DNA of 43,940 bases from Candidatus Ornithomonoglobus merdipullorum. Its GTDB lineage: Bacteria; Bacillota; Clostridia; UBA1381. Both the position numbers and the translations under genes were made by a program. Positions 2,469-32,555 of this stretch are shown here, one piece after another. The DNA is taken from the NCBI GenBank assembly GCA_018714695.1, contig DVNB01000106.1:1-43940 (forward strand), in the 5' to 3' direction. The notes beneath the pieces were generated by a model that worked only from the letters and a program-made list of their open reading frames with translations, did no database searches and was not told where the DNA came from. Position 1 is the first letter of the stretch. Every line of letters starts with the position of its first letter.

Positions 2469-2517
2469 CTTGTAAAGTTCATGAATAATTGTTTGTTTTT
2501 TATATAATGTGTGTAAA

Positions 2518-2554
2518 AATGATAATGTATTTATAAATTTTTTTGTGATATAAT
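2518..2554 (+). promoter_or_regulatory. Promoter of the GH115 gene with shared upstream box
   Basis: The box AATGATAATG (2518-2527) lies exactly 31 bp upstream (start to start) of TATAAT (2549-2554), as at four other transcription units here. The hexamer at the -35 position (TGTATT, 2526-2531) is a poor match to TTGACA, consistent with activator dependence. The predicted transcript starts about 40 nt before ATG 2601. Confidence 0.65.
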
Positions 2555-2600
2555 TTTATTAACATAATATTAATTTTTTTGAACAGGAGGGAAAGGCTTT

Positions 2601-5600
2601 ATGAAGATGAAAAAATTTGTGGCATTGGTATCGGCGGTATCGATGCTAGGCTCGGCTTTTACGGCTCTGCCTTTGACAGCAGGCGCAGAGGGATCGGAAA
2701 CGGTGTTCTATGAGCAGGATTTCGAGGAGCTTGGAGCGCAGACGCTGCTCGAGCACAAGCTAGACACCGAAGAGGCGGTGAACGCTGTAAAGGACGACTA
2801 CACCGACATGGTCGTATCCGGAGAGCCGGCAGTTTTGACATGGACGGATGCGGGCGGCGGAAGTATGAACATGAATGATGTTCAGGGAAGATATAATTCC
2901 GCGGGGATCAGATATGACATAACAGAGCTTGTGGCCGGAAAGAGCGGAAAACTTACCATAACCGCTGATGTCAGAGGCGGCTACGGTGAGGTGTTTGAGG
3001 ACGCGGGCAGAGTAGGCTTTATGAACGAGACGCAGGCTGCCGCAGCGGACTCATCTGGTTCGTCAAACGGTTTTATGTATAATTTCCCTGCGGCAACGGT
3101 AGGAACACAGAACAGCGGTGACTTCACAACAATAAGCTATACGGCAAATTCGATCCCGGAATACGATACAAATTTGTATTTCTTTATAGGGATAACAAAA
3201 CCGGATATGAACGTGAAAAATGTAAGGCTCACGCTTGAGGATGAAAGCGCCGGTGACAGCAGGATAACGCCGTTTTCAAGATTTTATTCGATGACATCTT
3301 CGATCACTTCGGATACAAGGGACGGCATGACGGGAAATTATCTTGCATTGAAGCATTCAAATGAAGGAACCGATCCGGGGCAGGGCGTGGTGATAGATCT
3401 GTCGGGATCGGGGATAGAGAACGGTGAAAAGCTTGATATATCATTTGATATAGCGACAGATTCGGAGAATCTGGGTCATCTGCAGACATTTGTAGTGTCG
3501 GATACATCCGTTGAGAGCCTGACAGGCACAGAAGGATTTTTAAGGACCGTCACAGCGAGCGGGGGAGAAAACGGATGGGTGGCTCAATCCAACGGCGGAT
3601 ATGAGAACACATTCTACAGCTCGGCAAATTATCATGTCAGCTACACAGTTGATCAGGTAACGCTCGATGAGGGAGAGAATCCTTATCTCTGCATAATGAA
3701 TAATAATCCGACGATATATATCGACAATATCATGGTAAGCCCCGCGGCTGCAGAGCCTGATCCGGATGAGACTCCGGAGAGCGCATCGCCTGTGCCGACT
3801 GCCTCAGCGCCTGTGGGAACACCGGCGGCAGGCGATTTTGTTATCGCGGATGTGAACGGTGTTACGGACATATACATAGACTCCGCAGGCGCGGATTATG
3901 ACGGTATCTCGCTTGTTGCCGAAGCGTTCGCAAACGATGTGACGCTCGTGAGCGGACAGACGCCGGATATCGTGACGGATGCGGCGCAGCTGGGTAGCAC
4001 AGCGATCATAGCCGGAACGACGGCTGACGCAAATATACAGGCACTCGTTTCAAGCTCCAAGATAGACGTGAGCGACATAGAGGGCAAGAACGAGGTATAT
4101 AAGATACAGTATGTTGAGGAGCCGATGGATGGTGTTGATAAGGCTGTAGTTATTGCCGGGAGCGACAAGCGCGGAACGATTTACGGAATCTTCCATATTT
4201 CCGAGCTCATAGGTGTGAGCCCATGGGTATATTGGGGCGATGCCCTGCCTGAGCAAAAATCGGGAATAGTTCTCAGCGCGGATGAGCTCAACACAACATC
4301 AAAGGAACCGTCGGTGCGATTCAGAGGTATATTCTTAAATGACGAGTACCCCAATCTCACGAAGTGGTCGAAAAATACCTTCGGCGGTTATAATCACAAC
4401 TTCTATCAGCAGGTATTCGAGCTGATATTAAGGCTCAAGGGCAACTATCTCTGGCCTGCAATGTGGTCAAACGTTTTCAATAAAGAGGGTATAGCAGGAC
4501 TCTCCGCCGAGCAGGCAGAGGGATTTGACTCGCTCGAGAGTGCAAGGCTGGCGGATAAGTACGGTGTGCTTATGGGAACATCACATCATGAGCCTATGCA
4601 CCGCGCGGGAATGGAATGGGGACAGGAATATAAGAATTACCTCACGGCTGAGGATGCGGCGCTTGGTTCGGGCGCAACCTGGGATTACTTCAATTATGCG
4701 TATGCTCTTGATAAATTCTGGGACGATGGCTTTAAACGCAGTAAGGATTTCGAAACGGTAACGACTATAGGCATGAGAGGCGAGGCGGACTCCTCACTCG
4801 CAGGCGGTCTTGCGACCAACGTGGAGAATCTTGAAAATGTTATTTCATCACAGCTTGAGATCATTGAAAAGTACGGTAAGAGCGATGCCCCGACCATGCT
4901 TGCGCTCTACAAGGAGGTAGAGGAGTACTGGTATGGCGGCGAGGAGAACGGTGAGCATGTTCCGGGACTCAAGGAATGGAGCGTGAACGGCAAAAATCCG
5001 CTTGATGATACGATAATAATGCTCTGCGACGATAACTTCGGAAATCTCCGCTCGGTACCGCAGCCTGACGAGATCGACCGTCCCGGCGGCTGGGGGCTAT
5101 ATTATCATTTTGACTACCATGGCGCGCCGACAGATTACCGCTGGGTAAGCTCAACGCCGCTTGAAAAGATATGGGAGAACCTCACGAGAGCATACGAGTA
5201 TAAGATGGACGATCTCTGGATCGTAAACGTGGGCGACCTCAAGCCGCACGAGCTTGAGATCTCATACTTCCTTGATCTCGCGTATGACTATGACGCGTGG
5301 AAGGATGAGAATAAGATAGAGGAATACACGCGTGAGTGGACGGAGCAGCAGTTCGGATATGAGGGGGTTTCGGAGGAAACGGTAAACGAGATCGCAGAGC
5401 TGCAGCTTGACTATCTCAAGCTCAACGGTACAAGGCGTCCGGAGATAGTTTACAACACGACCTACAGCGTTACGGACGCGAATGAGGTCTACAATTACAT
5501 AGACAAAGCAAACAGCATATACGATAGGGCATATGAGCTGCTTGAGAGGATACCGGAAAGGATAAAGGATTCGTATTATCAGATAGTCCTGTATCAGGCG

Positions 5601-8600
5601 GCGGGCAGCGCGAATGTAAATCTTATGAGCCTGTACTCTGCACTAAACGGAATGTACAGCTCTGCAGGCAGTGTGCTCGCGAACAAGTATGCGGTGCTCG
5701 TAAACGAATGTATTGAGCGCGATACACAGATGCAGGATTATTACAACAATACGATGAGCGGCGGCAAGTGGAAGGATATGATGAGCGACGAACTTGCGCA
5801 TATCGGCTGTACGTCGTGGGATCTCACGAAGTGGGCTTATCCGAGCGCGGTATATGTTTCACCCAGCGCGGATGCGTCACTCATAGTAAATGTTGACGGA
5901 ACAAGAACTGCCGCGAAGGCGGGCGGAACGGTTTCGCTCCCGACATTCACAAGCACAAATAAAGAGGCATATGCCATAACCGTATCAAACGGAGGAAAGA
6001 ATAAATTTAACTATACCGCTCAGGCAAACGTTGATTGGATCGTGCTGTCAAAGGCGAGCGGAACGATCTATTCGGGTGACACGATAGGCGTGAGCATCGA
6101 CTGGTCAAAGCTTACCGAGGACAGCACAGGAACTGTAACGATAAGCGGTGCAGACGGGTCGGTAACGGTGAATGTTACGGCTGACGTTATAGACGTGAGC
6201 GGTCTTGACAGCATGACATTTGTGGGCAGAGACGGTATGACCGCGATAGAGGCGGAACACTATGCTTCATCGAACGGTAACTGGATAACAATAGATAACT
6301 ATGGAAAAACACTTTCGACGATAAAGACGAAGCCGTTCAATGTTGATTATAATGTTGACAATGCTCCGTATGTTGAGTACAAGGTAATGGCAGACGAGGC
6401 GGGCGATTATACACTGAAGGTATATGCCACACCGTCGAATCCGACCACAACGAGCGGTGATGTACGTTATGCTGTAGGAATCAACGGAGGCAAGGCTGTT
6501 GAGTACAGCTCGCTCGAGGATGGATTCCTTGCGGGTGACCACGGCACACGCTGGGGCAATGGCGTTTTGGTGAATATCCATGAGGACACTGTCACTGTAT
6601 CGTTAAATGCAGGAGTGAACACGATAAGGATATATCAGCTGAGCTCTGGCTTCTCGCTTCAGAAGCTGGCTCTGGCAGCGCCGGGCGTATCGTTTGGGAA
6701 CGCGTACACAGGCCCTGAGGAGAGCTGGTATGTCGGCGCAGACGATGCACAGAAGGCTCTTGTTCACTTCTCGCCGGAGGATACTATGAATATCCCGGGC
6801 GTGATCGAGGACAGCGGCAAAAAGGTTATAGTTACCGCGGAGAGCGATTATCTTATAACTGCACCGGAGGGAACTGTAATAAGTCTTGACGGAGTACCGA
6901 TAGACACCATAGCAAATCCGGATGGAACGATGGAGACGACACTTTCACAGGGCGAGTACACGATAACTTACACAGGGGAAGGTCCCGTTGAATTTGAGGC
7001 GCTTGACAGCACGCCGGGCGTTATAATCAACCATCCGATGTCCACCGAGGCAGAATTCGCAGCAGCGGCGGCAGGCTATGTAAACCGTGTGGACGGCAAT
7101 GATGACAAGAGAGTTGTAAGCTTTGCGGACGATTCAATGAATTATACGACCAGCGGGCTCTATACAAGCTCGGGTTTCAAATACGATATCACAGCGCGTG
7201 TCAGGAAAGCGATCGAGGAATACGGTGCCGGCACAGAGTTCACGCTGTCGATGGATATCAAGGGCAAGATAGGCGGCAACGGAACACCTGCGATAGGATT
7301 CATGGCAGGAGGCGCGACGGTTGCATCTACACCGATAACGGGTGTTGTAAACGAAAGTGGATTTACAAAGGTAACCTGCAAAACGACATTCAGCAGTACG
7401 GACGATCTGGCATTCTTTGTATACACAGGAGAGCCGACAGTATATGTAAAGAACATATCGGTCACATTCCCTGCACCGCAGGAGGTAGAATTGTTTGATC
7501 ATAAGAGCGACGACGATTGGGACAACTATGTTGTATACGACGAGACGAACGAGAATGCGGTTCTCACGAACAATGGAAGCAGTCTGAGCGCGGAATTCCA
7601 CACTGCTGACGGCTGGAGCGCTGATAACGGTATAAAGATCGACGTAACGGATTACGTAAAGAAGTGTGATAACGGCGGAAAGTTCGGCGTGGAGCTGACG
7701 TTCACCTGCTGGTACTGGGGCGGCAGCGTAAGCGCGTTCCTTGAGGATCAGAACGGTGAAAACAAGGTCATCCTGGCCGAACAGGCTACGGATACAAGCA
7801 ATCCTCCCGAGGATAATACGATAACGATCTCGGGCAGCGCGGCATATTCGTATTCCGAAAACGAGAGGACGTATCTATGTATAACACAGATGTCGGATAA
7901 TCATCAGTATAAGGAGATCAAATTCACAGGTATGCAGACACCGGGCGGAGGCGATGATCCCACGGAGACTGTACCGCCGACCGAGACAGAGGATCCTACG
8001 GAGAAGAACATGATCTTCACACATGGCGATGCGGCTGACTGGGCAGCATATACAATATATGATGAAACGAATACTGCAGCGTCGAGAACGGAAGGAGAGC
8101 AGCTACAGATAGCGTACAGTGGCAGCGATACTCCCGATGATGAAAAGGCGCATGAGTGGGATACTAATAATGGTATCAAGATCGATATAACCGATGCGGT
8201 AACGGGCTCTGGCGCGTCAAAGCTCGGCGCGTCGGCAGATGTGCTCAGCTGGTGGTGGGGCGAGACCGCGGCCAGGCTGTTCATAGAGGTAGTAAGCGGC
8301 ACGGATACAAAAATCATAACTCTTGACGAGACAGCCGGCAGCGAGAACGGCACCGCGTTGACACTCAGCGGAGAGGGCAGCGTAAGCTATGCAGACGGTG
8401 ATAAGATCTATCTGTGCGTAACGCATCCGAGCGGAACGCAGCAGTATGACAACATTTCGCTCTGGAGCTATGAGGGAGGCGGCGATCCCGACGCAACACC
8501 GGGACCGACAGAGCCTGTGCCTGAGCCGACACCGGATACTCGTATAGTGGTATTCAGCGACGACTTCTCGGATGAGTCCGAGGCGGACCGATATGCACCG

Positions 8601-10451
8601 TATGAGGATGGATCGCTTGATGAGACCGCCGATAACGGCATCAAGTGGGGCAGACTTGCATATAACTTCTCGAACGGAAGCTATGCCGATAACGGAATGA
8701 AGGCAGACATAACGGATATAGTAAAGAATAACGGCATAACAACGCTCAATGCTTCGATAGACGTGCTTTCCTATTGGTGGGGCGGCAATCAGGCGGTATT
8801 CAGAGCCGTTGTGACGGATGCCGGCGGGAATGCAAAGAACACATATCCGCTCGGAACAGCGCCGGAGGATCTCACTGATAAGGACGGAACATATGTGAGC
8901 GTAAGCGGCTCGGCTGAGATAGAGTACGAGGAGACGGATATCATTTATCTTGTTGTAACGCATCCGAGCGGAACGCATGCATACGACAATCTAGTGATCT
9001 GGATGGACGGTTCGGAGCTGCCGGTAAACGACAGTCTGAAGATCGCCTCGCCTGTACTCAATGAGGACGGAAACGGCGGATACATAACAGCCTCAAACGG
9101 AGCCGAAACTGCTTCGGCGATCACGGTGTATGTCGCCCGGTACAATGACGACGGAACGCTCGCAGCGCTCAGTCTAACACCTGCTGAGATACAGGCAGGA
9201 GCCGAAAACGTGAGAATAGACTTTGAGGCGGCAGAGGGGGATACCGTATTCGTATGGGACAGAGCTATGAGACCTCTTACGGATAAGACTGTGCTTGAGG
9301 CAAGCGTATGGGTAGCAGGCTGGGGCAGTGCTCAGCAGCAGTATATGGAGAGCGACATGCCCTCCACCCCGCTTGACGGTAGCGTTATAAGACAGGTAAT
9401 AAGAATGTCCACGGGCGGTGACTATATGAAGCTCACATTCTCGAACTATTACGGCAAGAGCGATCTCGTGCTTGACTCGGTGCATATCGCTGATTCGCTT
9501 GGCAGCGGTATGATAGATCTTGCAACGGATACGGCAGTGACCTTCGGCGGCAGTGAGAGCGTGACTATCCCGGCAGGACAGACGGTAGAGTCTGACGTTA
9601 TATGCTACAGTGTTCCCGATCTCGGAAGCATTGCAATGACGATAAAGGCTGCGGAGGTCCCCGATGAGGTGACCGGACATTCCGGCGCAAGGACTACGAC
9701 GTATATAAAGAGCGGCGCAACGGTTTCCGATGCATCCATGATAGGTGCTGAGACGAATGAGCACTGGTACTTCGCATCGGAGATAGATGTTCTTAAGGAT
9801 GCGGAATACGCTGTTGTAGCATGTCTCGGAGACTCGATAACCGACGGACGCGGCTGTACAACCAATGCTAACGATCGATGGACCGATGTTCTCATGGAAC
9901 GAATGAAGGATGCGGGAATGAAGCTCACCGTCGTAAACGATGGTATAGGCGGAAATGCGATCAACAACTGGGGGCTCGGTGAGAGCGGACGTGACCGTTA
10001 CGAGAACGAAGTCAAAAACCGCACCGGGATAAAATATCTCATAGTCCTCGAGGGAATAAACGACATCGGCGGAAGAACAGAGGACGTTTTTGAAGGCGAT
10101 ATGTCGAAATGTCCCGAGGATGGAAAGATAACCACCGGTATAATTGAGGCATATCAGGAGATAATCGACAAAGCGCACGAGCAGGGCATAAAGGTGATCG
10201 GCGGAACGATACTTCCGTGCGGAAACAACGATTACTATAACGAGACCATGGAGGAAATGCGTCAGACCATAAATGCGTGGATACGCGAGGAAGGCAATTT
10301 TGACGCGGTGATCGATTTTGATGCCGTTATGAGCGATCCTGACGATCCAACAAAGATGAAGGCGGAATACGATTCAGGCGACGGACTGCATCCCGGTCCG
10401 GCAGGCTACAGAGCAATGGGCGAATGCATCGATCTTGCACTGTTCGATTGA
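2601..10451 (+). CDS. Giant secreted GH115 xylan alpha-1,2-glucuronidase with C-terminal SGNH esterase
   Basis: A 2,616-residue protein that should remove (4-O-methyl)glucuronic acid from xylan and carries a second hydrolase. The start follows AGGAGG (2585-2590). Order: signal peptide (1-29); two beta-sandwich modules (about 30-210 and 215-385); Pro/Thr/Glu linker; GH115 (about 412-1080) with family stretches WPAMWSNVF, GTSHHEPM, TIGMRGEAD, CDDNFGN and YYHFDYHG; GH115 C-terminal beta domain (about 1217-1380); another sandwich module (1479-1629); three tandem 'WWG' modules (1630-2135); the recurring domain (2147-2230); an SGNH-associated beta-sandwich (2234-2400); and an SGNH catalytic domain (2404-2616). 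The SGNH blocks are intact: Ser2412 in GDSITDG, Gly2450/Gly2451, Asn2487 in GINDIGG, Asp2594 and His2597 in DGLHPG. Acetylxylan esterase activity is inferred. GH115 enzymes are usually under 1,000 residues. It is transcribed alone, between a shared-box promoter and a strong terminator. Confidence 0.92.
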   Translation: MKMKKFVALVSAVSMLGSAFTALPLTAGAEGSETVFYEQDFEELGAQTLLEHKLDTEEAVNAVKDDYTDMVVSGEPAVLTWTDAGGGSMNMNDVQGRYNSAGIRYDITELVAGKSGKLTITADVRGGYGEVFEDAGRVGFMNETQAAAADSSGSSNGFMYNFPAATVGTQNSGDFTTISYTANSIPEYDTNLYFFIGITKPDMNVKNVRLTLEDESAGDSRITPFSRFYSMTSSITSDTRDGMTGNYLALKHSNEGTDPGQGVVIDLSGSGIENGEKLDISFDIATDSENLGHLQTFVVSDTSVESLTGTEGFLRTVTASGGENGWVAQSNGGYENTFYSSANYHVSYTVDQVTLDEGENPYLCIMNNNPTIYIDNIMVSPAAAEPDPDETPESASPVPTASAPVGTPAAGDFVIADVNGVTDIYIDSAGADYDGISLVAEAFANDVTLVSGQTPDIVTDAAQLGSTAIIAGTTADANIQALVSSSKIDVSDIEGKNEVYKIQYVEEPMDGVDKAVVIAGSDKRGTIYGIFHISELIGVSPWVYWGDALPEQKSGIVLSADELNTTSKEPSVRFRGIFLNDEYPNLTKWSKNTFGGYNHNFYQQVFELILRLKGNYLWPAMWSNVFNKEGIAGLSAEQAEGFDSLESARLADKYGVLMGTSHHEPMHRAGMEWGQEYKNYLTAEDAALGSGATWDYFNYAYALDKFWDDGFKRSKDFETVTTIGMRGEADSSLAGGLATNVENLENVISSQLEIIEKYGKSDAPTMLALYKEVEEYWYGGEENGEHVPGLKEWSVNGKNPLDDTIIMLCDDNFGNLRSVPQPDEIDRPGGWGLYYHFDYHGAPTDYRWVSSTPLEKIWENLTRAYEYKMDDLWIVNVGDLKPHELEISYFLDLAYDYDAWKDENKIEEYTREWTEQQFGYEGVSEETVNEIAELQLDYLKLNGTRRPEIVYNTTYSVTDANEVYNYIDKANSIYDRAYELLERIPERIKDSYYQIVLYQAAGSANVNLMSLYSALNGMYSSAGSVLANKYAVLVNECIERDTQMQDYYNNTMSGGKWKDMMSDELAHIGCTSWDLTKWAYPSAVYVSPSADASLIVNVDGTRTAAKAGGTVSLPTFTSTNKEAYAITVSNGGKNKFNYTAQANVDWIVLSKASGTIYSGDTIGVSIDWSKLTEDSTGTVTISGADGSVTVNVTADVIDVSGLDSMTFVGRDGMTAIEAEHYASSNGNWITIDNYGKTLSTIKTKPFNVDYNVDNAPYVEYKVMADEAGDYTLKVYATPSNPTTTSGDVRYAVGINGGKAVEYSSLEDGFLAGDHGTRWGNGVLVNIHEDTVTVSLNAGVNTIRIYQLSSGFSLQKLALAAPGVSFGNAYTGPEESWYVGADDAQKALVHFSPEDTMNIPGVIEDSGKKVIVTAESDYLITAPEGTVISLDGVPIDTIANPDGTMETTLSQGEYTITYTGEGPVEFEALDSTPGVIINHPMSTEAEFAAAAAGYVNRVDGNDDKRVVSFADDSMNYTTSGLYTSSGFKYDITARVRKAIEEYGAGTEFTLSMDIKGKIGGNGTPAIGFMAGGATVASTPITGVVNESGFTKVTCKTTFSSTDDLAFFVYTGEPTVYVKNISVTFPAPQEVELFDHKSDDDWDNYVVYDETNENAVLTNNGSSLSAEFHTADGWSADNGIKIDVTDYVKKCDNGGKFGVELTFTCWYWGGSVSAFLEDQNGENKVILAEQATDTSNPPEDNTITISGSAAYSYSENERTYLCITQMSDNHQYKEIKFTGMQTPGGGDDPTETVPPTETEDPTEKNMIFTHGDAADWAAYTIYDETNTAASRTEGEQLQIAYSGSDTPDDEKAHEWDTNNGIKIDITDAVTGSGASKLGASADVLSWWWGETAARLFIEVVSGTDTKIITLDETAGSENGTALTLSGEGSVSYADGDKIYLCVTHPSGTQQYDNISLWSYEGGGDPDATPGPTEPVPEPTPDTRIVVFSDDFSDESEADRYAPYEDGSLDETADNGIKWGRLAYNFSNGSYADNGMKADITDIVKNNGITTLNASIDVLSYWWGGNQAVFRAVVTDAGGNAKNTYPLGTAPEDLTDKDGTYVSVSGSAEIEYEETDIIYLVVTHPSGTHAYDNLVIWMDGSELPVNDSLKIASPVLNEDGNGGYITASNGAETASAITVYVARYNDDGTLAALSLTPAEIQAGAENVRIDFEAAEGDTVFVWDRAMRPLTDKTVLEASVWVAGWGSAQQQYMESDMPSTPLDGSVIRQVIRMSTGGDYMKLTFSNYYGKSDLVLDSVHIADSLGSGMIDLATDTAVTFGGSESVTIPAGQTVESDVICYSVPDLGSIAMTIKAAEVPDEVTGHSGARTTTYIKSGATVSDASMIGAETNEHWYFASEIDVLKDAEYAVVACLGDSITDGRGCTTNANDRWTDVLMERMKDAGMKLTVVNDGIGGNAINNWGLGESGRDRYENEVKNRTGIKYLIVLEGINDIGGRTEDVFEGDMSKCPEDGKITTGIIEAYQEIIDKAHEQGIKVIGGTILPCGNNDYYNETMEEMRQTINAWIREEGNFDAVIDFDAVMSDPDDPTKMKAEYDSGDGLHPGPAGYRAMGECIDLALFD
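7488..9006 (+). repeat. Three tandem 'WWG' beta-sandwich modules in the GH115 protein
   Basis: Three diverged copies of about 150 residues (near 7488-7938, 8007-8480 and 8545-9006) are separated by Pro/Thr/Glu-rich linkers. Each has an Asn-Gly-(Ile/Met)-Lys-x-Asp-(Val/Ile)-Thr strand, then an aromatic patch (WYWGG, WWWGE or YWWGG), then a hydrophobic IYLCV-type strand, and the last two end PSGTQQYDN or PSGTHAYDN. Two more copies are in the next gene. I do not recognise a named CBM family. A carbohydrate-binding role is inferred from the aromatic patch and the context. Confidence 0.7.
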
Positions 10452-10489
10452 GTTGATATTTTGTCGGATATATCTGAAAAACAGAATCA

Positions 10490-10526
10490 CAAAACCGAAG
10501 CTTGCGTGCTTCGGTTTTGCAGTTTT
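10490..10526 (+). terminator. Strong intrinsic terminator after the GH115 gene
   Basis: CAAAACCGAAGC (10490-10501) and GCTTCGGTTTTG (10508-10519) form a perfect 12-bp stem with a 6-nt loop, followed by CAGTTTTATA. The stem's own T-run plus the following TTTT serve as the U-tract. Confidence 0.88.
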
Positions 10527-10563
10527 ATATAATTTATATAAAAATAATAGAGAAAACGATTAA

Positions 10564-10600
10564 TTTGTTAATGGACATTAACGATATAAAGCTATATAAT
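10564..10600 (+). promoter_or_regulatory. Promoter of the GH43-SGNH / GH43-CE1 operon with shared box
   Basis: TTTGTTAATG (10564-10573) overlaps a good -35, TGGACA (10572-10577), which is 17 bp from a perfect TATAAT (10595-10600). Box-to--10 offset is 31 bp, identical to four other promoters here. The 5' leader is about 28 nt. Confidence 0.8.
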
Positions 10601-10635
10601 AAAATCGTATAAAAAGAATTACAGGAGGGATTTAG

Positions 10636-13600
10636 ATGAAAAAAATTGCAAGCGCGATATTGTCGTTGACGGTTGCCGGAGGATGCTTTACCGGATTTAA
10701 CGGTGCTCTGGCACAGGATGGTACGAGCGAGCTTGTCACAAACGGCGGTTTCGAGTCCGGGACTACAGATCCGTGGCTGAGCTTCTGCGGTTCGGAAATT
10801 GAGGTGTCAAACGAGGAATATCACGGGGGAGAGCGTTCGATGAAGATAACCGGCCGTGAGGCTGCGAATTCGGGCGCGATAATCGATCTTTCCGGAGGAA
10901 GTATCACTCCGGGGGCTACGTACAAAATAAGTGCATGGGTAAAGTATAATGAGGGACCCGATATATTGTCGTATAACATTATAATGATCGGAAATGACAG
11001 CAGCGCCAACGCGTCATATAAGCCTGTGGCGACCGCTGCGGCGCAGAAGGGTGAATGGACACTTATAGAAACAAGTTATACTGTACCGGACGATCTTGAC
11101 ACGACATCCTTGGCGCAGTTCTATTTTGAAACTCAGACGGAGGATGATAACATCTATTATGATTTTTATGTCGATGATGTATCTATAGAACTGGAGAGTG
11201 TGAGTGATGCAAAGCTCGCACTTGCAAAGACACCCGGAAGGGCAAATCCGCTCATGGGCTATGATTTCGGTGCGGATCCGTTTGCGATGGAGTATAACGG
11301 AAGACTTTACGTTTATATGACTGCCGACGCATTCACCGAGGAGGTAGACGGTGAGCCGGGCGCGAATTCATACGGACAGATACATACGATAAAGGTGATC
11401 TCGTCCGAGGATCTTATAAACTGGACCGATCATGGTGAGATACCTGTAGGCGGCAGAGTGCTTGAAAACGGCACCGCAAAATGGGCAACGAACTCATGGG
11501 CGCCTTCGGTGGTCCATAAGACGATAAACGGCGAGGAGAAGTTTTTCCTTTACTTTGCCGACAACGGCTCGGGTATAGGAGTGCTTGTTTCGGATTCTCC
11601 GACAGGACCGTTTACCGATCCTATAGGCGGACCGATCGTAAACGGAGATACCCCGGGCGCGCAGGGAGTTGTGTGGATGTTTGATCCGGCTGTATACATA
11701 GACGATGACGGTTCGGCATACATGTATTTCGGCGGCGGTATCCCGGCGCAGTCGGGCGGTACGAGTCTGCCGGAGGATATTTTGCATCCGAGATCGTCAA
11801 GGGTCATAAAGCTTGGAGATGATATGATAAGTACCGAGGGTGAGGCTGTAATGATAGATGCCCCGGGAATACTTGAGGACAGCGGCATGCATAAGTATGG
11901 TGACACGTATTATTACTCATACTGCACAAATTTTGATGTGCAGAATTACGAGGACACTGACGGAACGAAATATCCGTCGGGAACGATATGCTATATGACA
12001 AGTGACAGCCCTATGGGGCCGTTCACGTATCGCGGCTCTGTGCTTGACAATATGTACGGATTTTTCGGTATGGGCGGGAACAATCACCATGCCATCTTTG
12101 AGTTCAAGGACAGCTATTATATGATTTATCATGCACGCACGCTTGAAAAGGCTATGGGTTATGATAACAAGGACTGCCGTTCGACTCATATAAACAAAGT
12201 GGAGTTTAATGAGGACGGCACAATGCAGCCGGTAATTGCAGATTATATCGGAGACCCGATAGAAGGTGTCACCATTGATGCAGGAAACAGATTAGAGGCG
12301 GAAACCATAGCCTACGGTACGGATATAAGTGTAGAGAGAATGGATGAGGCCGGAAATTCTAAGGTGACAGGCATAACTAACGGCAGCTGGACTTCTGCTG
12401 CAAACGTCGATTTCTGCTCGGGTGAGCTTGCATATATCTCGGCGAGAGTGTTCGGAAAGACGGGCGGTACAGTTGAGGTAAGATATGACAGTGTGAACGG
12501 CGAGACAGCCGGAACGATAAATATCGCTCCGTCAGATGACTGGCAGACGGTGAACGCGGTGATAACGCCGGCATCGGGAGTGCATGATCTGTATTTCGTA
12601 TTTAAAGGCGAGGACGGTTCGGAGCTTTTCGATGTGGACTGCTGGCAGTTCAGTGAGGATGCGCCGATAGATCAGCCGTCAGAAGATCCAGGTGAGACAG
12701 GGCACAAAGTGCTTTTTGAGGATGATTTTTCAACCGATGATAACGCTGCGCTGTACGCTGAGTATACCAAGGACACACTTGACAGTGAAAACAGCGGTAT
12801 TATGTATGAAAAGCTTGTTCACAAATTTGTGAATGATTGGGGCGATAGCCACGGTATGAGGATGGATATAACTTCGATCGTAACGGAAAACGATGTGACT
12901 TCGGTAGGGGCGTCGGCATTGATGGGCAGCTACTATTGGGGCACTTCAGATGAGCTTGTGACGGCAAGAATGGTGATAGAGGTCACAGATGCGGAAGGAA
13001 ATGTAAAGAACACATACAGCCTCGACGAGAAGCCGGATTCGTACGATGAGCTTGATTTTGCTGATGGCAGGGCGGAGGTGCAGCTCTCGGGAGAAACAAA
13101 CATATCGTATCAAGACGGAGACAGCATTTACCTCTGCATAATAAACGGCACAGGCTATCAGGATTATGATAATATAAGCATCTGGACAAATGAGGGCGGT
13201 CCTACGGATCAGCCGGGTGAGACGGAACAGCCCGGACAGGATACAAGAGTGATCATATTTAATGATGATTTTTCATCACAGGATGATATAGACAGATATG
13301 AGCCTTATGCCGAAGGAACGCTGAGCGAAAGCGCGGACGCGCCGAGCGGTATTGACTACGGCGCGCTCGTATATAATTTTGCGGATGGCTGGGGCGATGA
13401 TCATGGCATGAGAATGGATATAACCGATATAGTTAAAGACAATTCTCTCGACAGCTTCGGTGTGAACGCGAAATTCGGCAGTTATTATTGGGGCACATCA
13501 GATGCTGATCTGGCAAAAGTGTCTATGTCGATAGAGATCGCAGCGTCTGACGGAACCGTAAAGGATACAACGGAGCTGTGTTCTATGCCGGACAGTTATG

Positions 13601-15198: not shown

Positions 15199-15204
15199 GA
15201 CTTA

Positions 15205-15230
15205 TACGGGCGGTAGGATAGCCGCCCGTA
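15205..15230 (+). other. Intercistronic hairpin between the GH43-SGNH and GH43-CE1 genes
   Basis: TACGGGCGG (15205-15213) and CCGCCCGTA (15222-15230) form a perfect, GC-rich 9-bp stem with an 8-nt loop. No T-run follows; the next bases lead straight into AAAAAGGAG, the ribosome-binding site of the next gene. It is more likely an mRNA-stabilising, processing or partial-termination element than a full terminator. Confidence 0.6.
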
Positions 15231-15254
15231 CACATAAAAAGGAGTTGAAACTAT

Positions 15255-19829: not shown

Positions 19830-19834
19830 AAAGT

Positions 19835-19891
19835 AAGGGCTGCAGCAAAGGAGCGTTTTTAATGCTCATTTGCTGCAGCCCTTTTATTTTT
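19835..19891 (+). terminator. Strong intrinsic terminator after the GH43-CE1 gene
   Basis: AAGGGCTGCAGCAAA (19835-19849) and TTTGCTGCAGCCCTT (19869-19883) form a perfect 15-bp stem. The 19-nt loop contains a smaller GAGC/GCTC stem, and TTATTTTT follows. Confidence 0.9.
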
Positions 19892-19918
19892 ACCGATTTA
19901 TTATATATTAATTCTAAG

Positions 19919-19955
19919 TTTGATAATGTACTCTTATATGTATTTGGTATATAAT
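19919..19955 (+). promoter_or_regulatory. Promoter of the double-GH43 operon with shared box
   Basis: TTTGATAATG (19919-19928) is 31 bp (start to start) from TATAAT (19950-19955). The -35 position holds TGTACT (19927-19932), a weak hexamer, 17 bp from the -10. The leader to ATG 19997 is about 35 nt. Confidence 0.72.
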
Positions 19956-19996
19956 AAAAAATAATGTTAAAAGACATGTTTGAAGGGAGTGTTTTT

Positions 19997-25726: not shown

Positions 25727-25768
25727 CGTAAATATCCGCTTGGTTCTGTGATGCGGAATCAGGTGAAA

Positions 25769-25804
25769 GAGCTGCTGCGAGGCAAGTTGGTCTTGCGGCG
25801 GCTC
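25769..25804 (+). other. Stem-loop between the double-GH43 gene and the unknown gene
   Basis: GAGCTGCT (25769-25776) pairs with GGCGGCTC (25797-25804) using two G-U pairs. GCAAG (25782-25786) pairs with CTTGC (25792-25796) around TTGGT, leaving a 5-nt bulge on the 5' side. AAATTATATT follows, not a T-run. It may cause partial termination or separate expression of a secreted and an intracellular enzyme in one operon. Confidence 0.5.
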
Positions 25805-25836
25805 AAATTATATTCGAAAAGGAAGTGGCTAACTAT

Positions 25837-27759
25837 ATGAAACTGATCTTTACGGCGCGAAACACGTTGCCGGACAGTACATATGAACCGATCGAGAGGT
25901 ATGGGCTTCGCGCGGAGACTGAATGGCTCAGCGGGAGCGGGACAGCGGACGATCCGTACCGTGTGCGGCTCACGATAGAAAACAGCTCAGAGGAGCGCTT
26001 TTGCGGGATCATCCATTCCGAGCTGTGCTTTGAGAAAAAGGAACCTCGATTTTTTTTACCTGCGTTCATGTACGGGCGCAACCGAGGCGAGTGTCCGCAG
26101 CATGTGGAAAACAAATTTCCGCGCCTGCGTGAGGATTCTAATGAGCTTCCGTCGTCTCCCTGGTGGATGGTACGCGGCGACAGGCTCTCGCATCCGGCGG
26201 CGTTCGTATTCGATAGCGGGATTGTATACGGACTGTGCGCGCCGCCATATATAAAGAGCGCGGACGGCGGGCTCGGACAGTTCTGCGGCTATTCCTGTTC
26301 GCTCGCGCGCGGCACGGTCGGCTGGACGCTCGGGTATGAGAATGCGCCGTATCTTTTCATATCCTCGCATAATATAAAGGAGCGCGAGACTGTGCCGTTC
26401 AGACTTGGCGCGGGGGAGAGTGTATGCGCAGAGCTCAGGCTGTACGAGTATTCCGCAGAGGATGAGACGGGGATAAACGCGGCAATAAAAAACGTGTATT
26501 ATACGTTTCATAAGCAGCCCCGCAATGGTGCGTCTGTGCCGGAGGCGATACGCGAGCTGTCTGATGCGGTAGCCGAGTACGCGTGGATCGAGGAGGAAAG
26601 TATGTATTCCTGCTTTGTTTTTGAACGGGATGGCGGATACGAGTACAACAAGCTCGGTTCGCTCACGTGGACGAACGGACTTTCAGTCGCGGTACCAATG
26701 CTTGAAGCGGGGCTCAGGCTTGGGGACGGTAAAAAGCGGGCTCAGGCGCTGCGCTTTATCGATAACACGCTTGCGAACTGTATGAATCCGCACTCGGGGC
26801 TGCCGTATGACGCGGTGGAGAACGGCAAGTGGTCGGTGAAGGGCTGGTGGTTTGACGGAATGTATACGAAGGGTCACAGCGCATATCTTATGGGTCAGGC
26901 GATGTATTACATACTAAAGGCATATCTTGCGGAGAAAAAGCATGCCGGTATCGAGCATCGTGACTGGCTTGATTTCGTGTCACCGGTAATCGAAAGGCTT
27001 GAAAAGACCCGAAACGGGGATCAGGAATATCCGTATATCATTTCGGAGGAAACCGGAGCCGGTCTTGAATATGATTCTATGGGCGGGGCGTGGTGCATGA
27101 CTGCCGCAGCAATGTATATGAAGATCACAGGAGACAGGAAATATTTAAAACAGATAAGAATAAGTGAACTGCACTATTATGAAAGATACGTAAAACGTAT
27201 GGAATGCTTCGGCGGACCGCTTGATGTGAGCAAGGCGGTGGACAACGAAGGCATCCTCGCGTATATCCGCGCTGTAAGGCTTCTGCACGAGCTTACAGGA
27301 GAGGCGGTATATCTTGAGCATATGTATGATGCGCTGTGCTATGAGTTCACGTTCAAGTTCTGTTATAACACACCTGTGCAGGTGCCGCCTTTAAGCAGTG
27401 TAGGCTGGTCGGCGTGCGGAGGCAGCGTAACGTCGACGGCGAATCCGCATATACATCCGATGTCATCATCTATAGTCGATGAGATGCTGTACTATTGTCT
27501 GCAGACCGGGAATGGGTATGTACTTGACAGGATGAATGATACGGTGAAATGGGGATGCCAGACCTATAACCATTATGACGGGGAGTTCGATCACGGCAAG
27601 AAGGGCTGGATGAGCGAGCGTTTCTGTTACTCGCAGGGGCTGCTTGACGAAAAATACCCGGACGGTTCTCCGGCGAGCACGTGGTTCGCGCTCATGCCGT
27701 GGGGTTCCTGTTCCATCATAGAGGGACTTGCTGGAGATTATTATGAATATATTGAGTAG
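25837..27759 (+). CDS. Unrecognised cytoplasmic protein, putative (alpha/alpha)6-barrel glycosidase
   Basis: I cannot assign this 640-residue protein to a family. ATG 25837 follows AAAAGGAAG (25817-25825); a GTG at 25825 in frame overlaps that site. There is no signal peptide. The first 220 or so residues look like a beta-sandwich (many Tyr, Phe and Gly strands, including FYxYGRNRG-like FMYGRNRGE). From about residue 240 the sequence reads as repeated helical hairpins with aromatic, Gly-rich loops (SLTWTNGLS, KGWWFDGMYTKGHS, DSMGGAWCM, SVGWSACGG, PWGSC). That layout is common in inverting glycosidases and lyases of the six-hairpin class. Its stop overlaps the GH39 start by 17 nt, so the two are translationally coupled. 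That places it in intracellular breakdown of xylan oligosaccharides, perhaps acting on a decorated one. The function is inference only. Confidence 0.6.
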   Translation: MKLIFTARNTLPDSTYEPIERYGLRAETEWLSGSGTADDPYRVRLTIENSSEERFCGIIHSELCFEKKEPRFFLPAFMYGRNRGECPQHVENKFPRLREDSNELPSSPWWMVRGDRLSHPAAFVFDSGIVYGLCAPPYIKSADGGLGQFCGYSCSLARGTVGWTLGYENAPYLFISSHNIKERETVPFRLGAGESVCAELRLYEYSAEDETGINAAIKNVYYTFHKQPRNGASVPEAIRELSDAVAEYAWIEEESMYSCFVFERDGGYEYNKLGSLTWTNGLSVAVPMLEAGLRLGDGKKRAQALRFIDNTLANCMNPHSGLPYDAVENGKWSVKGWWFDGMYTKGHSAYLMGQAMYYILKAYLAEKKHAGIEHRDWLDFVSPVIERLEKTRNGDQEYPYIISEETGAGLEYDSMGGAWCMTAAAMYMKITGDRKYLKQIRISELHYYERYVKRMECFGGPLDVSKAVDNEGILAYIRAVRLLHELTGEAVYLEHMYDALCYEFTFKFCYNTPVQVPPLSSVGWSACGGSVTSTANPHIHPMSSSIVDEMLYYCLQTGNGYVLDRMNDTVKWGCQTYNHYDGEFDHGKKGWMSERFCYSQGLLDEKYPDGSPASTWFALMPWGSCSIIEGLAGDYYEYIE

Positions 27760-29290
27760 AAATAAAATGATCGAGAAACATATACATGTAAAAAAAGACG
27801 ATACAGTGAAGGAGTTCCGCAACAATGTGGATTTCTGTGTCGGTACCGGACGAATGGGACTTGCGCTGCATGAGGAGTACATGGACGAGCTAAGGTTCGT
27901 GCAGGAGGAAATAGGCTTTAAACATATTCGCGGACACGGGCTGTTCTGTGACGATATGGCAATATATCAGTTCAGAGAGGACGAGGAAGGAAACAAGGTG
28001 CTTGAATATAATTTCACATATCTTGACCGCGTTTTCGATGGATATTTAAAGCTGGGGATACGTCCGTTTCTGGAACTTGGATTTATGCCGGCAGAGCTGG
28101 CGAGCGGAGATCAGACGGTATTCTACTGGAAGGGGAATGTTACCCCTCCTAAGGACTATCGCGGCTGGTGTGCATTGGTGCAGGCGCTTTTGAGACATCT
28201 TATAGATCGCTATGGCAGGGATGAGGTAACGTCATGGCCTGTTGAGGTGTGGAATGAGCCTAACTTAACAGGATTCTGGAAGGATGCCGATATGGATGAG
28301 TATTTCAGACTGTTCGATGAGACGTTTCGTGCAGTGAAAGAGGTGGACGAGAGGTTCCGAGTCGGCGGACCGGCGGTCTGCGGCGGAACTGATGAGATCT
28401 GGATCAAAGCATTTCTGGATTTCTGTGACGAAAACGGGATAGATGTGGATTTTATAACGCGTCATCATTACACCTGCGGCATATCTGAACGTATCGGACA
28501 TTATACATATCCGGACCCGGACGATCCGCAGTGGGGCAGGGACAATTTGAAAACGACTCGCGATATAACGGACAGTTATGACCGATATCGAGGCAAAGAG
28601 ATACATATAACCGAATTCAACACATCATGGTATCCGAGAACTGTTATACATGACACGAATTTCAATGCGGCATATATTGCACATCAGCTGTCGTGGTTGG
28701 GTGATCTGAACGAGTCATATTCCTATTGGACGTTTGGTGATGTTTTCGAGGAAACGGGAGTGCCGTTCAGTTTGTTCCATGGTGGATTCGGAATGGTGGC
28801 AAACGGATGTATCCCAAAGCCGACCTTCTGGACTTTTAAATTTTATAAAAATTTAAAGGATCGCGGGGCGGAATGTGCCTATCGCTCGGATAATGCCGTA
28901 ATAATGAGAAAAACAGGCGGAGGCTGGTGCGGGATCGCATGGAATTTCGGCATGGACGGCGGGAACGAAGAGCTTGAGCTGAAATTGTCGCTTGACGCGG
29001 CGGACGGCGAGTATTCGTTTGTCATGCACACGGCAGATCCCGTTACCTGCAATCCGCTGAAGGCGTGGCATGACATAGGGGAGCCTAAGACCCCGACGGA
29101 GATGCAGCTTGATATAATAAAGGGGGCTGCACAGCCGTTTGTGAGCACTGAAAGACTGTCTGCACATGAGGGCAGGCTTGAAAAAAAGATACCGGTACGG
29201 GACTGCGGCGTGGTGTATTTTGAGCTTACACCGTCTGAGCTTATAAGTGACAGGGGGTATGATTACAGCCGTGTCACTGAGATAAGATAA
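27743..29290 (+). CDS. Intracellular GH39 beta-xylosidase
   Basis: Releases xylose from the ends of xylo-oligosaccharides with retention of configuration. It is 515 residues, close to the usual GH39 length of about 500. I start it at ATG 27743 with GGAG at 27733-27736; the frame also extends up to a TTG at 27728, which lacks a ribosome-binding site. Catalytic residues are visible: acid/base Glu172 in VEVWNEPN and nucleophile Glu291 in HITEFNTSW, followed by YPRTVIHDTNF and a C-terminal beta-sandwich. No signal peptide, so it acts on imported sugars. It overlaps the preceding gene by 17 nt and ends the operon that begins at 19997. No terminator is visible before the next promoter, so read-through into 29402 is possible. 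Confidence 0.92.
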   Translation: MNILSRNKMIEKHIHVKKDDTVKEFRNNVDFCVGTGRMGLALHEEYMDELRFVQEEIGFKHIRGHGLFCDDMAIYQFREDEEGNKVLEYNFTYLDRVFDGYLKLGIRPFLELGFMPAELASGDQTVFYWKGNVTPPKDYRGWCALVQALLRHLIDRYGRDEVTSWPVEVWNEPNLTGFWKDADMDEYFRLFDETFRAVKEVDERFRVGGPAVCGGTDEIWIKAFLDFCDENGIDVDFITRHHYTCGISERIGHYTYPDPDDPQWGRDNLKTTRDITDSYDRYRGKEIHITEFNTSWYPRTVIHDTNFNAAYIAHQLSWLGDLNESYSYWTFGDVFEETGVPFSLFHGGFGMVANGCIPKPTFWTFKFYKNLKDRGAECAYRSDNAVIMRKTGGGWCGIAWNFGMDGGNEELELKLSLDAADGEYSFVMHTADPVTCNPLKAWHDIGEPKTPTEMQLDIIKGAAQPFVSTERLSAHEGRLEKKIPVRDCGVVYFELTPSELISDRGYDYSRVTEIR

Positions 29291-29312
29291 AAAACAATAC
29301 ATAAACAGTTAA

Positions 29313-29349
29313 TTTGGTAATGGAAATCCCGTTGGTTATATTGTATAAT
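29313..29349 (+). promoter_or_regulatory. Promoter of the GH43-CBM6-Ig gene with shared box
   Basis: TTTGGTAATG (29313-29322) overlaps -35 TGGAAA (29321-29326), 17 bp from TATAAT (29344-29349). The four bases before the box (TTAA context) also match the 10564 promoter, making these two the closest pair. The leader to ATG 29402 is about 46 nt. Confidence 0.78.
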
Positions 29350-29401
29350 ATTATAATGATTTTTATACAAATATACTTTTACGAGGAGGATGTGAATATT
29401 T

Positions 29402-32305
29402 ATGAAAAAAAAGATTAATGAAGTGCTGCTCTCCTGTGTGACGGCGGTAGGAATGCTGCAGACTGCGGTCTACGCGAACAATCCTATAGTCCAGACTCGG
29501 TACACGGCCGACCCTGCGCCGATGGTGAGCGCGGACGGCGAAACGCTGTATCTGTTCACCTCGCATGATGAGCCGGAGGGCGGTGAGAACGGCGCCATGT
29601 ACGTGATGAACGACTGGAACCTGTACTCGACGCAGGACATGGTGAATTGGACGGATCTGGGAGTGCCGGCAAGCTATCATGTGTTTGAATGGTCAAAGGG
29701 CGACGCGTGGGCGATACAGACCGTTAGAGGCTTTGACGGCAAGTATTATCTGTATGCGCCTGTGAGAGGACAGAGCTCCACGGCTATCGGTGTCGCGGTC
29801 GCAGACAGACCGGAGGGACCTTATAAGGATGCTTTGGGCAAGCCGCTTACGGAAAAACCGAATTTTATCGATCCGTCGGTATATGTTGACTACGAGAGCG
29901 AACGCGCGTTCATAGTGTGGGGAAATCCCGATCCGTATTTCGCAGAGCTCAATCCCGATATGGTAACGTTCAAGACGCAGCCTGTGAGGATAAATAAGAC
30001 AACAACTGCCTTCGGTACCGCCGATGCGGGCAAGGACAGGGAAACAAGATACGAAGAGGGACCGTGGATATATGTGAGGAACGGCTATTGTTACCTTGTG
30101 TATGCAGGAAACGGCATCCCGGAGGATCTTGAGTATTCAGTGTGTGATAATGACACCTTCCTTGCTTGGGTAGACACACTTCCTAAGGCTGACGGGACAG
30201 AGGAATATGCAGCGGTAGAAGGACCGTGGACGTACGGAGATGTGCTGATGCCTACATTTGACAGCGGAACATTTACGAATCATCCGGGACCGATCGATTT
30301 CAAGGGAAATTCGTATCTGTTCTACCATACGGCAAAGCTGCCCGGCGCAAACGGGTTCAGACGCTCCGTAGCGGTGGATGAGATGACGTATAATTCTGAC
30401 GGTTCGATCGAGGCTGTGGTTCCGACAACTTCGGGGCCCGCGAAACTGAAGAATCTTGATCCGTATTCGCGCACTGAGGCTGAAACGATGGCATTTTCGG
30501 AGGGGCTTGAGACGGATGAGTATTATACGAATACAGAGACCGGAGCGGTGACTGATACGTTCACAAATGAAGATACAAAGAATGTCTATGTGACCGGGGT
30601 CAGCAGCGGCGATTACATAAAGGTCGCAAATGTGGATTTCGGCAGCGGTGCGGGAACGTTCACGGCGAGCGTTGCGTCTGCCGCAAAGGGCGGCGAGATC
30701 GAGCTCAGGCTCGACAGCAAAGACGGCATCCTCATAGGGACACTCCCTGTTTCATACACCGGAGGCAATGGCGTATGGCAGGAGAAGACCGCAGCAGTTT
30801 CCGGCGCCGAGGGCGTGCGTGATCTCTATCTTGTGTTCAAGGGTGAAGAGAGAGTTGAGGATCTGTTTGATGTGGATCATTGGAGATTCACACAGAAGAC
30901 GGATGAAAAGACGCTCACAGCTATCAATGCATCGATCGATGAGTACAAGATAGATACAAGGGACGGTGCGAACACGGCAAATATGACCGTAACTGCTGTC
31001 TACAGCGATGGAACATCAGAGGATGTGACTTCACAGGCTCAGGTAACATCGGACAATATAACATATAACAACGGAGTGATAACCGGCACCTCATACGGCG
31101 ACGCGGTGATCGATGTAAGCTACGGCGGAGTGAGCGAGCAGGTACGTCTCTTGGTAAAGGATATGGAGACCGAGGAAAAGGTAGCGAGCCTTTCGGTTGA
31201 ACCGGAGTCTGTAAAACTGGTCTACGGCGGCACGCCGGCAGACGTAACGGTGACTGCGGTATACGAGGACGGACATACAGAGGATGTAACGCTCAAGGCA
31301 GACTATACAGCAGCTGATTCGTCTGTAGTGTCGGCCGGAAACGGTACGATAGCGCCTTTGAAGGTCGGAAGCACGAATGTAACGGTAAGCTTTAAAGGAA
31401 GACTCGGCGAGGCGAAGCAGGCAGTGATACCTGTTACGGTAACGAGCAATATGATAATTAACGGCGATCTCGAGACAGGCTCAACAGAGCCATGGGTGAA
31501 CTATTATTCCACACTCTCCGTTGAGGATGAGGGCGGCAATAAGATCCTCAAGGTTTCAGACAGAGTTTCAGACGAGGAATGGGAGCAGGGCACGGCCAAC
31601 GGTGCGCATTACACGTTCGGCTCGGAGCTGCAGACAGGAAAGACATACAGATACTCTGCAAGACTCAAATATACCGAGGGACCGGATACAAGAGATTTCG
31701 CCATGGTATTCTGGAACGGCTGGCAGAAATATTTTGATGACACAAGCTGGGGAGACGAATACGGCGGATACAATCTACAGACAGTAACGGCTGCAAAGGG
31801 TGAATGGGTAACATTCTCAGGGACTGTAACGATCCCCGAGGGCGCGGACCTGTCAGACGAATTTGCTCTCGGATTCGTGACGACATGGGTGGCGGACCCC
31901 ACCGCTGAAAACGATCTGATGGACTATTATATCGACGATGTGACATTTGCCGATATGGATGCTGAGGATCCCGTAGCTACAGAAGATCCGGGCAGCTCGG
32001 AGGAACCTGATAAACCGCTCACGACAGTATCCAAGGCAGAGAGGATAGGCGGAAATATCGTGCTGACGACGACTGCGTCTGAGATCATAACCGATAAGGT
32101 CCTGCATGTTGCACTGTATGACGAAAATGACAAGTTGGTAAGATATATGCAGATCCCGACATCGGCTTCCGAAAAGACGGCATATGTCGTATTTGAGGAT
32201 AATGATTCGGCGGAATACGCTAAGGTATTCATTTGGGATTCGATAGGTCAGATGACGCCGAGCGCGGATGCTGAGACCGTAGAAATACATAAAATACATA
32301 TCTAA
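29402..32305 (+). CDS. Secreted GH43 with CBM6, two Ig-like domains, CBM4/9-like module and recurring domain
   Basis: 967 residues behind GAGGAGGA (29383-29390). A signal peptide of about 24 residues leads straight into the GH43 domain: Asp37 in YTADPAPM, Asp157 in FIDPSVYVD and Glu219 in EEGPWIYV. This is the pattern of GH43 beta-xylosidase/arabinofuranosidase enzymes with a short N terminus (subfamily 10-like, not certain). Then come CBM6 (about 352-497), two bacterial Ig-like domains (502-587 and 594-682, each with a VTAVYxDG(T/H)xEDVT core), a CBM4/9-like module (685-850), an acidic Pro linker, and the recurring domain (875-967) ending the protein. It is monocistronic: its own shared-box promoter upstream, hairpins and a terminator downstream. 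The Ig-like domains probably act as spacers at the cell surface. Confidence 0.9.
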   Translation: MKKKINEVLLSCVTAVGMLQTAVYANNPIVQTRYTADPAPMVSADGETLYLFTSHDEPEGGENGAMYVMNDWNLYSTQDMVNWTDLGVPASYHVFEWSKGDAWAIQTVRGFDGKYYLYAPVRGQSSTAIGVAVADRPEGPYKDALGKPLTEKPNFIDPSVYVDYESERAFIVWGNPDPYFAELNPDMVTFKTQPVRINKTTTAFGTADAGKDRETRYEEGPWIYVRNGYCYLVYAGNGIPEDLEYSVCDNDTFLAWVDTLPKADGTEEYAAVEGPWTYGDVLMPTFDSGTFTNHPGPIDFKGNSYLFYHTAKLPGANGFRRSVAVDEMTYNSDGSIEAVVPTTSGPAKLKNLDPYSRTEAETMAFSEGLETDEYYTNTETGAVTDTFTNEDTKNVYVTGVSSGDYIKVANVDFGSGAGTFTASVASAAKGGEIELRLDSKDGILIGTLPVSYTGGNGVWQEKTAAVSGAEGVRDLYLVFKGEERVEDLFDVDHWRFTQKTDEKTLTAINASIDEYKIDTRDGANTANMTVTAVYSDGTSEDVTSQAQVTSDNITYNNGVITGTSYGDAVIDVSYGGVSEQVRLLVKDMETEEKVASLSVEPESVKLVYGGTPADVTVTAVYEDGHTEDVTLKADYTAADSSVVSAGNGTIAPLKVGSTNVTVSFKGRLGEAKQAVIPVTVTSNMIINGDLETGSTEPWVNYYSTLSVEDEGGNKILKVSDRVSDEEWEQGTANGAHYTFGSELQTGKTYRYSARLKYTEGPDTRDFAMVFWNGWQKYFDDTSWGDEYGGYNLQTVTAAKGEWVTFSGTVTIPEGADLSDEFALGFVTTWVADPTAENDLMDYYIDDVTFADMDAEDPVATEDPGSSEEPDKPLTTVSKAERIGGNIVLTTTASEIITDKVLHVALYDENDKLVRYMQIPTSASEKTAYVVFEDNDSAEYAKVFIWDSIGQMTPSADAETVEIHKIHI

Positions 32306-32307
32306 AG

Positions 32308-32415
32308 GCTGTCGCCTACGGCGCAGCTTATTCCAAGGCAGCTAAGCCCTGGAACTGCAAACAGACCGCACCGCTCGGAGTACACTGTGTACACCTAATG
32401 GTGCGGTCTGTCTGT
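32308..32415 (+). terminator. Two hairpins ending the GH43-CBM6-Ig transcript
   Basis: A first small hairpin, GCTG-CGCC / GGCG-CAGC (32308-32327, one bulged T), begins just after the stop codon. The main stem is ACAGACCGCACC (32361-32372) with GGTGCGGTCTGT (32400-32411), a perfect 12 bp with a 27-nt loop holding GTACAC/GTGTAC. CTGTTCTG follows, which is only moderately T-rich, so termination may be incomplete or bidirectional. The remaining gap to the next promoter is AT-rich with nothing else recognised. Confidence 0.65.
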
Positions 32416-32518
32416 TCTGCGTTGGTAATAGAGCAGTCATATTCACGTTTTGATGTGTATGCTCCGTTTATGAATGAAAATTTACCGATATATTAAAAAT
32501 TACGCATAAAATTATAAA

Positions 32519-32555
32519 TTTGATAATTTCAATGAACAAGAAAATATAGTATAAT
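32519..32555 (+). promoter_or_regulatory. Promoter of the GH10/GH43/GH43/GH3 operon with shared box
   Basis: TTTGATAATT (32519-32528) is 31 bp (start to start) from TATAAT (32550-32555). The -35 position holds TTTCAA (32527-32532). The leader is about 38 nt to ATG 32600. Confidence 0.7.

Follow-up and report, generated by a model that had tools for sequence, protein, structure and literature searches.

Does a short box found at one fixed distance before five TATAAT hexamers mark the binding site of a regulator that governs a whole set of xylan genes? The question arose from a sequence-only reading of a 43,940-nucleotide contig of Candidatus Ornithomonoglobus merdipullorum (hereafter the window), which described a TTTGnTAATG-like box exactly 31 bp before TATAAT at five transcription units and proposed it as a candidate operator for the xylan regulon. 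All five boxes were present in the window sequence, as AATGATAATG (start 2518), TTTGTTAATG (10564), TTTGATAATG (19919), TTTGGTAATG (29313) and TTTGATAATT (32519), and a perfect TATAAT was found 31 bp from each box start (2549, 10595, 19950, 29344 and 32550). The relevant features of the window are as follows.

30 to 1943, plus strand: GH10 xylanase gene, upstream of the small AraC gene
1997 to 2323, plus strand: 108-aa AraC-type protein, DNA-binding domain only; possible operator binder
2514 to 2530, plus strand: putative operator copy 1, TAAAAATGATAATGTAT, before the GH115/GDSL gene; box 2518-2527; orthologous site at G013:C19:897
2549 to 2554, plus strand: -10 TATAAT of copy 1; predicted start 2561, from the pyrimidine-purine step
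2601 to 10451, plus strand: secreted GH115 and GDSL esterase protein
10560 to 10576, plus strand: putative operator copy 2, TTAATTTGTTAATGGAC
10595 to 10600, plus strand: -10 TATAAT of copy 2; predicted start 10607, from the pyrimidine-purine step
10636 to 15198, plus strand: GH43, CBM and GDSL protein, followed by a GH43/esterase gene (15255-19829)
19915 to 19931, plus strand: putative operator copy 3, TAAGTTTGATAATGTAC
19950 to 19955, plus strand: -10 TATAAT of copy 3
19997 to 25726, plus strand: double-GH43 protein, start picked after GAAGGGAG, followed by 25825-27759 and a GH39 gene (27728-29290)
29309 to 29325, plus strand: putative operator copy 4, TTAATTTGGTAATGGAA
29344 to 29349, plus strand: -10 TATAAT of copy 4
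29402 to 32305, plus strand: GH43 and CBM6 protein
32515 to 32531, plus strand: putative operator copy 5, TAAATTTGATAATTTCA; orthologous site at G013:C13:17812
32550 to 32555, plus strand: -10 TATAAT of copy 5; predicted start 32562, from the pyrimidine-purine step
32600 to 35578, plus strand: GH10 xylanase, followed by GH43 (35595-37073), GH43-SLH (37070-39697) and GH3 (39687-41831)
41946 to 43448, plus strand: RR1, a YesN-type response regulator with a receiver and an AraC DNA-binding domain; best candidate binder
43455 to 43940, plus strand: 5' part of a sensor kinase gene adjoining RR1, cut by the contig end

The 644-aa product of the gene at 25825-27759, between the double-GH43 and GH39 genes of one unit, matched no Pfam family and may represent a new one related to xylan.

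The window holds 36 TATAAT hexamers on the plus strand and 26 on the minus strand. A search of both its strands for TTTGNTAATK returned four boxes, every one belonging to the five promoters. Site 2518 is the weakest, with two mismatches to the box, and is backed by the orthologous site in G013, which carries the identical variant. Under a first-order Markov model of AT-rich upstream regions the chance of a box is ∼1e-4 per position, and the probability that four of five promoters share one common offset is ∼3e-14. We extended the search to the organism's own 2.65-Mb assembly (G000), to further genomes of its genus (among them G009, G011-G013 and G015) and to G020, from another genus of the same family. 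The bare box matched 24 times in the own assembly, against 24 for a reversed control pattern, and most of these copies apparently lie inside coding sequence without a -10; the signal is therefore the box plus its spacing. Box, N21 and TATAAT together gave 4 exact matches in the own genome and 0 for the reversed pattern, and the looser TTTGNTAATK, N21 and TANNAT gave 10 against 1. Across 16 genus genomes, 20 of the 64 box/TATAAT pairs at gaps of 6-36 bp fall at gap 21, the other gaps averaging 1.47 pairs each, and all 20 are confined to G000, G009, G011, G013 and G015. The Markov probability, the reversed-pattern controls and the gap distribution together rule out a chance origin. There was no Rfam match in the window or near operator sites, and a literature search on TTTGATAAT gave nothing relevant among the papers listed.

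Alignment of 27 sites revealed that the true site is longer than the box: TWAnTTTGnTAATKTAC, 17 bp and asymmetric, or by position T(-4), W, A, n, TTTG, n, TAAT, K, T/G, A, C. The 27 include orthologous promoters, so they are not all independent. T at -4 (24/27) and A at -2 (25/27) were not demanded by the search pattern. With -12 assigned to TATAAT, the site extends from about -47 to -31 and its downstream end runs into the -35 hexamer at spacer 17, which bears out the earlier placement of the box across the -35 region. The remark that several -35 hexamers are poor held across the alignment, where they match the consensus at a mean of 3.5 of 6 positions and lack its G in 22 of 27 sites. A pyrimidine-purine step at box +42/+43 occurs in 25 of the 27 (at most 12 at neighbouring positions), window sites 19919 and 29313 being the two exceptions; this step is, judging from the alignment, the sign of a genuine transcription start. 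Identity among the five window promoters is 0.33-0.36 in the flanks, no higher than in AT-rich DNA, compared with 0.72 inside the motif. Flanks so unlike rule out recent duplication as the source of the five promoters.

An asymmetric site of about 17-20 bp that overlaps the -35 at a fixed register has the form of a class-II site of the AraC/XylS family. No clear second half-site was found 20-32 bp upstream in either orientation, nor a clear second motif copy at 20-21 bp; direct repeats about 21 bp apart occur, not universally, in the YesM/YesN-like family, and a degenerate copy is possible. Either a monomer suffices, then, or the second half-site is degenerate. The best shifted self-match of the site is a weak internal repeat of period 9. 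A Rex-like palindrome, GTTAATGGACATTAAC, at 10564 was set aside, being present at that promoter only.

Which genes carry the site? Besides the five window units, with their GH115/GDSL, GH43 and GH10 genes and operons, it precedes in the own genome a GH67 gene (contig C30), an isomerase-xylulokinase-phosphoketolase operon (C39), a GH30-CBM9 gene with a solute-binding protein (C6) and a GH43 gene (C6:7554). The sole unrelated target is dapL (C58), identified by sequence; nine of the ten loose matches are thus regulon-like, in several functionally linked units. By our tally 26 of 31 loose matches in the genus are regulon-like, the remaining five being two dapL promoters, two matches within coding sequence (G005) and one in non-coding DNA (G009:C50). 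Targets in relatives comprise GH43, GH39, GH10, GH67, GH30, solute-binding protein, isomerase and AraC genes, and the site is kept before the GH115, GH10, GH67, isomerase and GH30 orthologues of other species. Scanning a sequence profile of the promoter across the genus genomes recovered matches absent from the set used to build it, namely the GH115 ortholog with the 2518 variant, a GH3 gene in G011 and a GH67 gene in G012. In G020 the motif precedes solute-binding protein, GH30 and GH10 genes. Profile matches at G014:C38, G013:C2, G003 and G007 were rejected since they resemble ordinary promoters of unrelated genes. Hits in the genome and its relatives thus fall before carbohydrate genes at equal spacing, as the sequence-only reading had anticipated, and motif, spacing, conservation and target genes support its proposal of a xylan operator. 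The regulon itself is strongly supported.

Two observations concern single promoters in these scans. The dapL promoters of G000 (L034, C58, 4173-4209) and G008 (C126:6073) mimic the box at equal spacing; dapL is the one clear housekeeping match, G008 has no copy of the regulator, and the look-alike is probably an ordinary TTGAAA promoter. In G015 (L132, C38, 4899-5230) an operator promoter is followed by an apparent broken GH67 start, which reads MEYSKL and then TGA where relatives have Trp and lies directly before RR1.

One predicted target is not a protein gene. The promoter at C6:281 does not read directly into GH30; it is predicted to give a transcript of ∼225 nt before that gene, folded into a hairpin at the 5' end and a long closing stem and ended by an intrinsic terminator. 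GH30 has an operator-like promoter of its own, a weaker one with its box at C6:596. Copies of the structured RNA were found in G000, G009 and G013 only, all regulon genomes, without an Rfam match:

324 to 550, L031 (G000:C6): structured RNA
49480 to 49708, minus strand, G013:C34: structured RNA
3623 to 3843, minus strand, G009:C190: structured RNA

The RNA has a C-rich loop, CUCUCUCCCUU, complementary to AAGGGAGAGAG, the Shine-Dalgarno of RR1, and by duplex energy RR1 ranks 1 of 67 genes as pairing partner in G000 and 3 of 49 in G013. Such pairing is suggestive only, because any C-rich loop fits Shine-Dalgarno sequences. A similar arrangement stands in G011 (L130, C133, 1032 to 576, minus strand), where operator promoter, structured stretch, terminator, operator promoter and GH3 follow one another; despite the likeness, the stretch has no detectable sequence similarity to the G000 RNA. 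A partial copy of this RNA's 3' end, with terminator and then promoter-like DNA, lies just 3' of the phosphoketolase gene (L032, G000:C39, 12278-12353).

RR1, the best candidate for the activator, lies at the window end. It has a receiver and an AraC DNA-binding domain (PF00072, PF12833, PF00165). The gene next to it in G013, G011 and G020 encodes a kinase with His_kinase and HATPase domains (PF06580, PF02518), and the order RR1-kinase-RR2 recurs in G013, G011, G015 and G020 (we took L223 as the G020 contig, the RR1 match coordinates being identical). In G013 a solute-binding protein gene and two permease genes follow the module, with the operator before the former. Close full-length relatives of RR1 (E<1e-85) were found in 6 of 70 family genomes (G000, G011, G012, G013, G015, G020), and the exact motif with TATAAT in 7 (G000, G009, G011, G013, G015, G020, G053); five genomes have both (Fisher p 1e-5, before kinship correction). 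G012, which has RR1, carries variants only, TTTATTAATT before GH67 and TTTGTTAATA before GH43. G020 has RR1 and the motif, and its congeners G016-G019 have neither. Most of the 70 genomes without RR1 also lack the motif, the exceptions being G009, which has three conserved sites yet neither RR1 nor RR2 detected in an assembly 88% complete, and G053, whose single isolated match, before another AraC-type response regulator, may be chance. RR2 was found wherever its locus is complete, and RR1 and RR2 co-occur, so that their distributions are not separable. The RR1 promoters of G011 and G015 share TTAA-TT-AATCATTTACC before GATAAAAT (L131, upstream of 9191 on the minus strand; L132, 5148-5196), a possible variant operator that would permit autoregulation. 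In named genomes, RR1 relatives come from assemblies of uncultured Clostridia; the isolate label of several is 'Lapin', which we take to mean rabbit-gut samples.

The 108-aa AraC protein is encoded between GH10 and GH115, and an equivalent gene, 81% identical, holds the same place in G013. The pair shows purifying selection (dN 0.11, dS 1.54). The DNA-binding domains of this protein and RR2 group together at 42-51% identity, and a sequence search for solved structures placed YesN-type domains, AraC and MarA (1bl0, E 3.5e-4) among its nearest.

Quite probably, in our view, the box forms the core of an operator at which a class-II activator controls a glucuronoarabinoxylan regulon, and this activator is likely to come from the RR1-kinase-RR2 module. 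An AraC-type activator would dock on the 17-bp operator always the same way round and at the same distance from the -10, and through contact with sigma region 4 would recruit polymerase to a sigma-A promoter with a weakened -35, spacer 17 and a perfect or near-perfect TATAAT. This would switch on secreted xylanases, arabinofuranosidases, glucuronidases and esterases, a sugar-binding protein, the cytoplasmic GH67 and the isomerase/xylulokinase/phosphoketolase operon; the likely activator would belong to the module whose first two genes stand at the window end. Class-II activation fits because the site is asymmetric, has one orientation and one register and is joined to a weakened -35 (consensus G in 5/27), in keeping with the activator-assisted transcription suggested earlier from the poor -35 hexamers. 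That five promoters and the relatives carry the site at a fixed distance before xylan genes makes it a putative activator site, very probably that of an undescribed activator of the whole xylan programme. Activation rather than repression, the sigma contact, the identity of the binder and the inducer are what we infer from these data. RR1 or its partner is most likely to bind, co-occurrence being the one line of evidence that points to RR1; RR2 and the small AraC protein are alternative candidates. A possibility to be held tentatively, and clearly second to the foregoing, is that the operator is real and read mainly by RR2 and/or the 108-aa protein as a MarA/SoxS/RamA-like monomer, RR1 controlling other things, for example the transporter. 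The kinship of the two domains, the presence of RR2 at every complete locus and the selection on the small gene favour this, as does the single 17-bp site, which suits a monomer, whereas a dimeric response regulator might be expected to use a second half-site 21 bp upstream, of which there was no clear trace; however, the small gene is found in G000 and G013 only, the motif is spread wider, and RR1 is co-distributed equally well. It is unlikely that a phosphorylated response regulator and a MarA-sized relative both read the operator and that the same operator drives a small RNA which pairs with the RR1 Shine-Dalgarno, closing a feedback loop; were this so, the MarA-sized protein would be a built-in amplifier or competitor within the xylan regulon.

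Readings without an AraC-type activator fare worse. A repressor operator on the -35, of LacI, ROK or GntR type and relieved by a xylan sugar, would account for the overlap with the -35, and most predicted carbohydrate regulators of Caldicellulosiruptor are repressors (PMC8579813, as reviewed in PMC10766802). The site is not palindromic, however, its invariant G has no dyad partner, a repressor needs neither strict register and orientation nor a weakened -35, and the co-distributed regulators are AraC-type; we regard this reading as improbable. The AT-rich promoters and the dapL look-alike could be taken to mean that the box is common to sigma-A or AT-rich promoters of the species at large, the outcome that would have undone the original proposal, but box, gap 21 and TATAAT occur together in just 5 of 16 genus genomes, nearly always before carbohydrate genes, a restriction that largely refutes it and leaves it a very small chance. 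Sites of ResD read TTTGTGAAT, and the superficial likeness of TTTGnTAAT and the weak period-9 repeat might recall the tandem sites that ResD/PhoP-like response regulators of OmpR type bind. Against this, T at box position 6 is invariant, there is no second TTTGnTAAT and the domains of the co-distributed regulators are of AraC rather than OmpR type; we give it hardly any credence.

The closest working analogue of the proposed activator operator is XydS/XydR of Ruminiclostridium (Clostridium) cellulolyticum, a sensor kinase and AraC-type response regulator encoded beside a secreted hemicellulase cluster, needed for straw induction of hemicellulases and binding promoter regions (PMC3572039). It resembles our system in regulator kind, in hemicellulase targets and in common sequences upstream of and on the -35 (PMC3572039), but those sequences, for example GATTTATA-N6-TGGAAA-N3-TTTACA, differ from the present motif, and it acts on few targets and a single long transcript, unlike the present operator, which recurs at many units, sugar catabolism included. 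Since the regulator is of the same kind and the sequence differs, the operator and regulon are new but their type is known. MarA, SoxS and RamA likewise place a ∼110-aa AraC-family domain on one asymmetric site, overlapping core promoter elements at class-II promoters, and in the RamA-RNAP structure a single monomer reaches both sigma region 4 and alpha-CTD through its two helix-turn-helix motifs (PMC8811837); these are enterobacterial stress regulators, however, and our system differs from them in motif, in targets and in its probable two-component input. The BxgRS, AxuRS and AviRS systems of Caldicellulosiruptor bescii are local two-component regulators of xylan and cellulose loci predicted from conserved motifs (PMC8579813). 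They share with ours local two-component control of xylan loci predicted from motifs, but there repeats of 21- or 32-bp periodicity were sought and here one 17-bp site has no clear second copy.

The host Clostridia have the look of fibre degraders from herbivore guts. Bacteria of this sort very commonly possess AraC-type response regulators, few of which, to our knowledge, have been assigned an operator. The single register-locked site described here spans the programme from secreted xylanases through phosphoketolase, which provides a concrete, testable operator and a candidate regulator for glucuronoarabinoxylan use in uncultured Clostridia without genetics. It lets the regulon be predicted in metagenome-assembled genomes and would supply a xylan-responsive promoter of natural origin.
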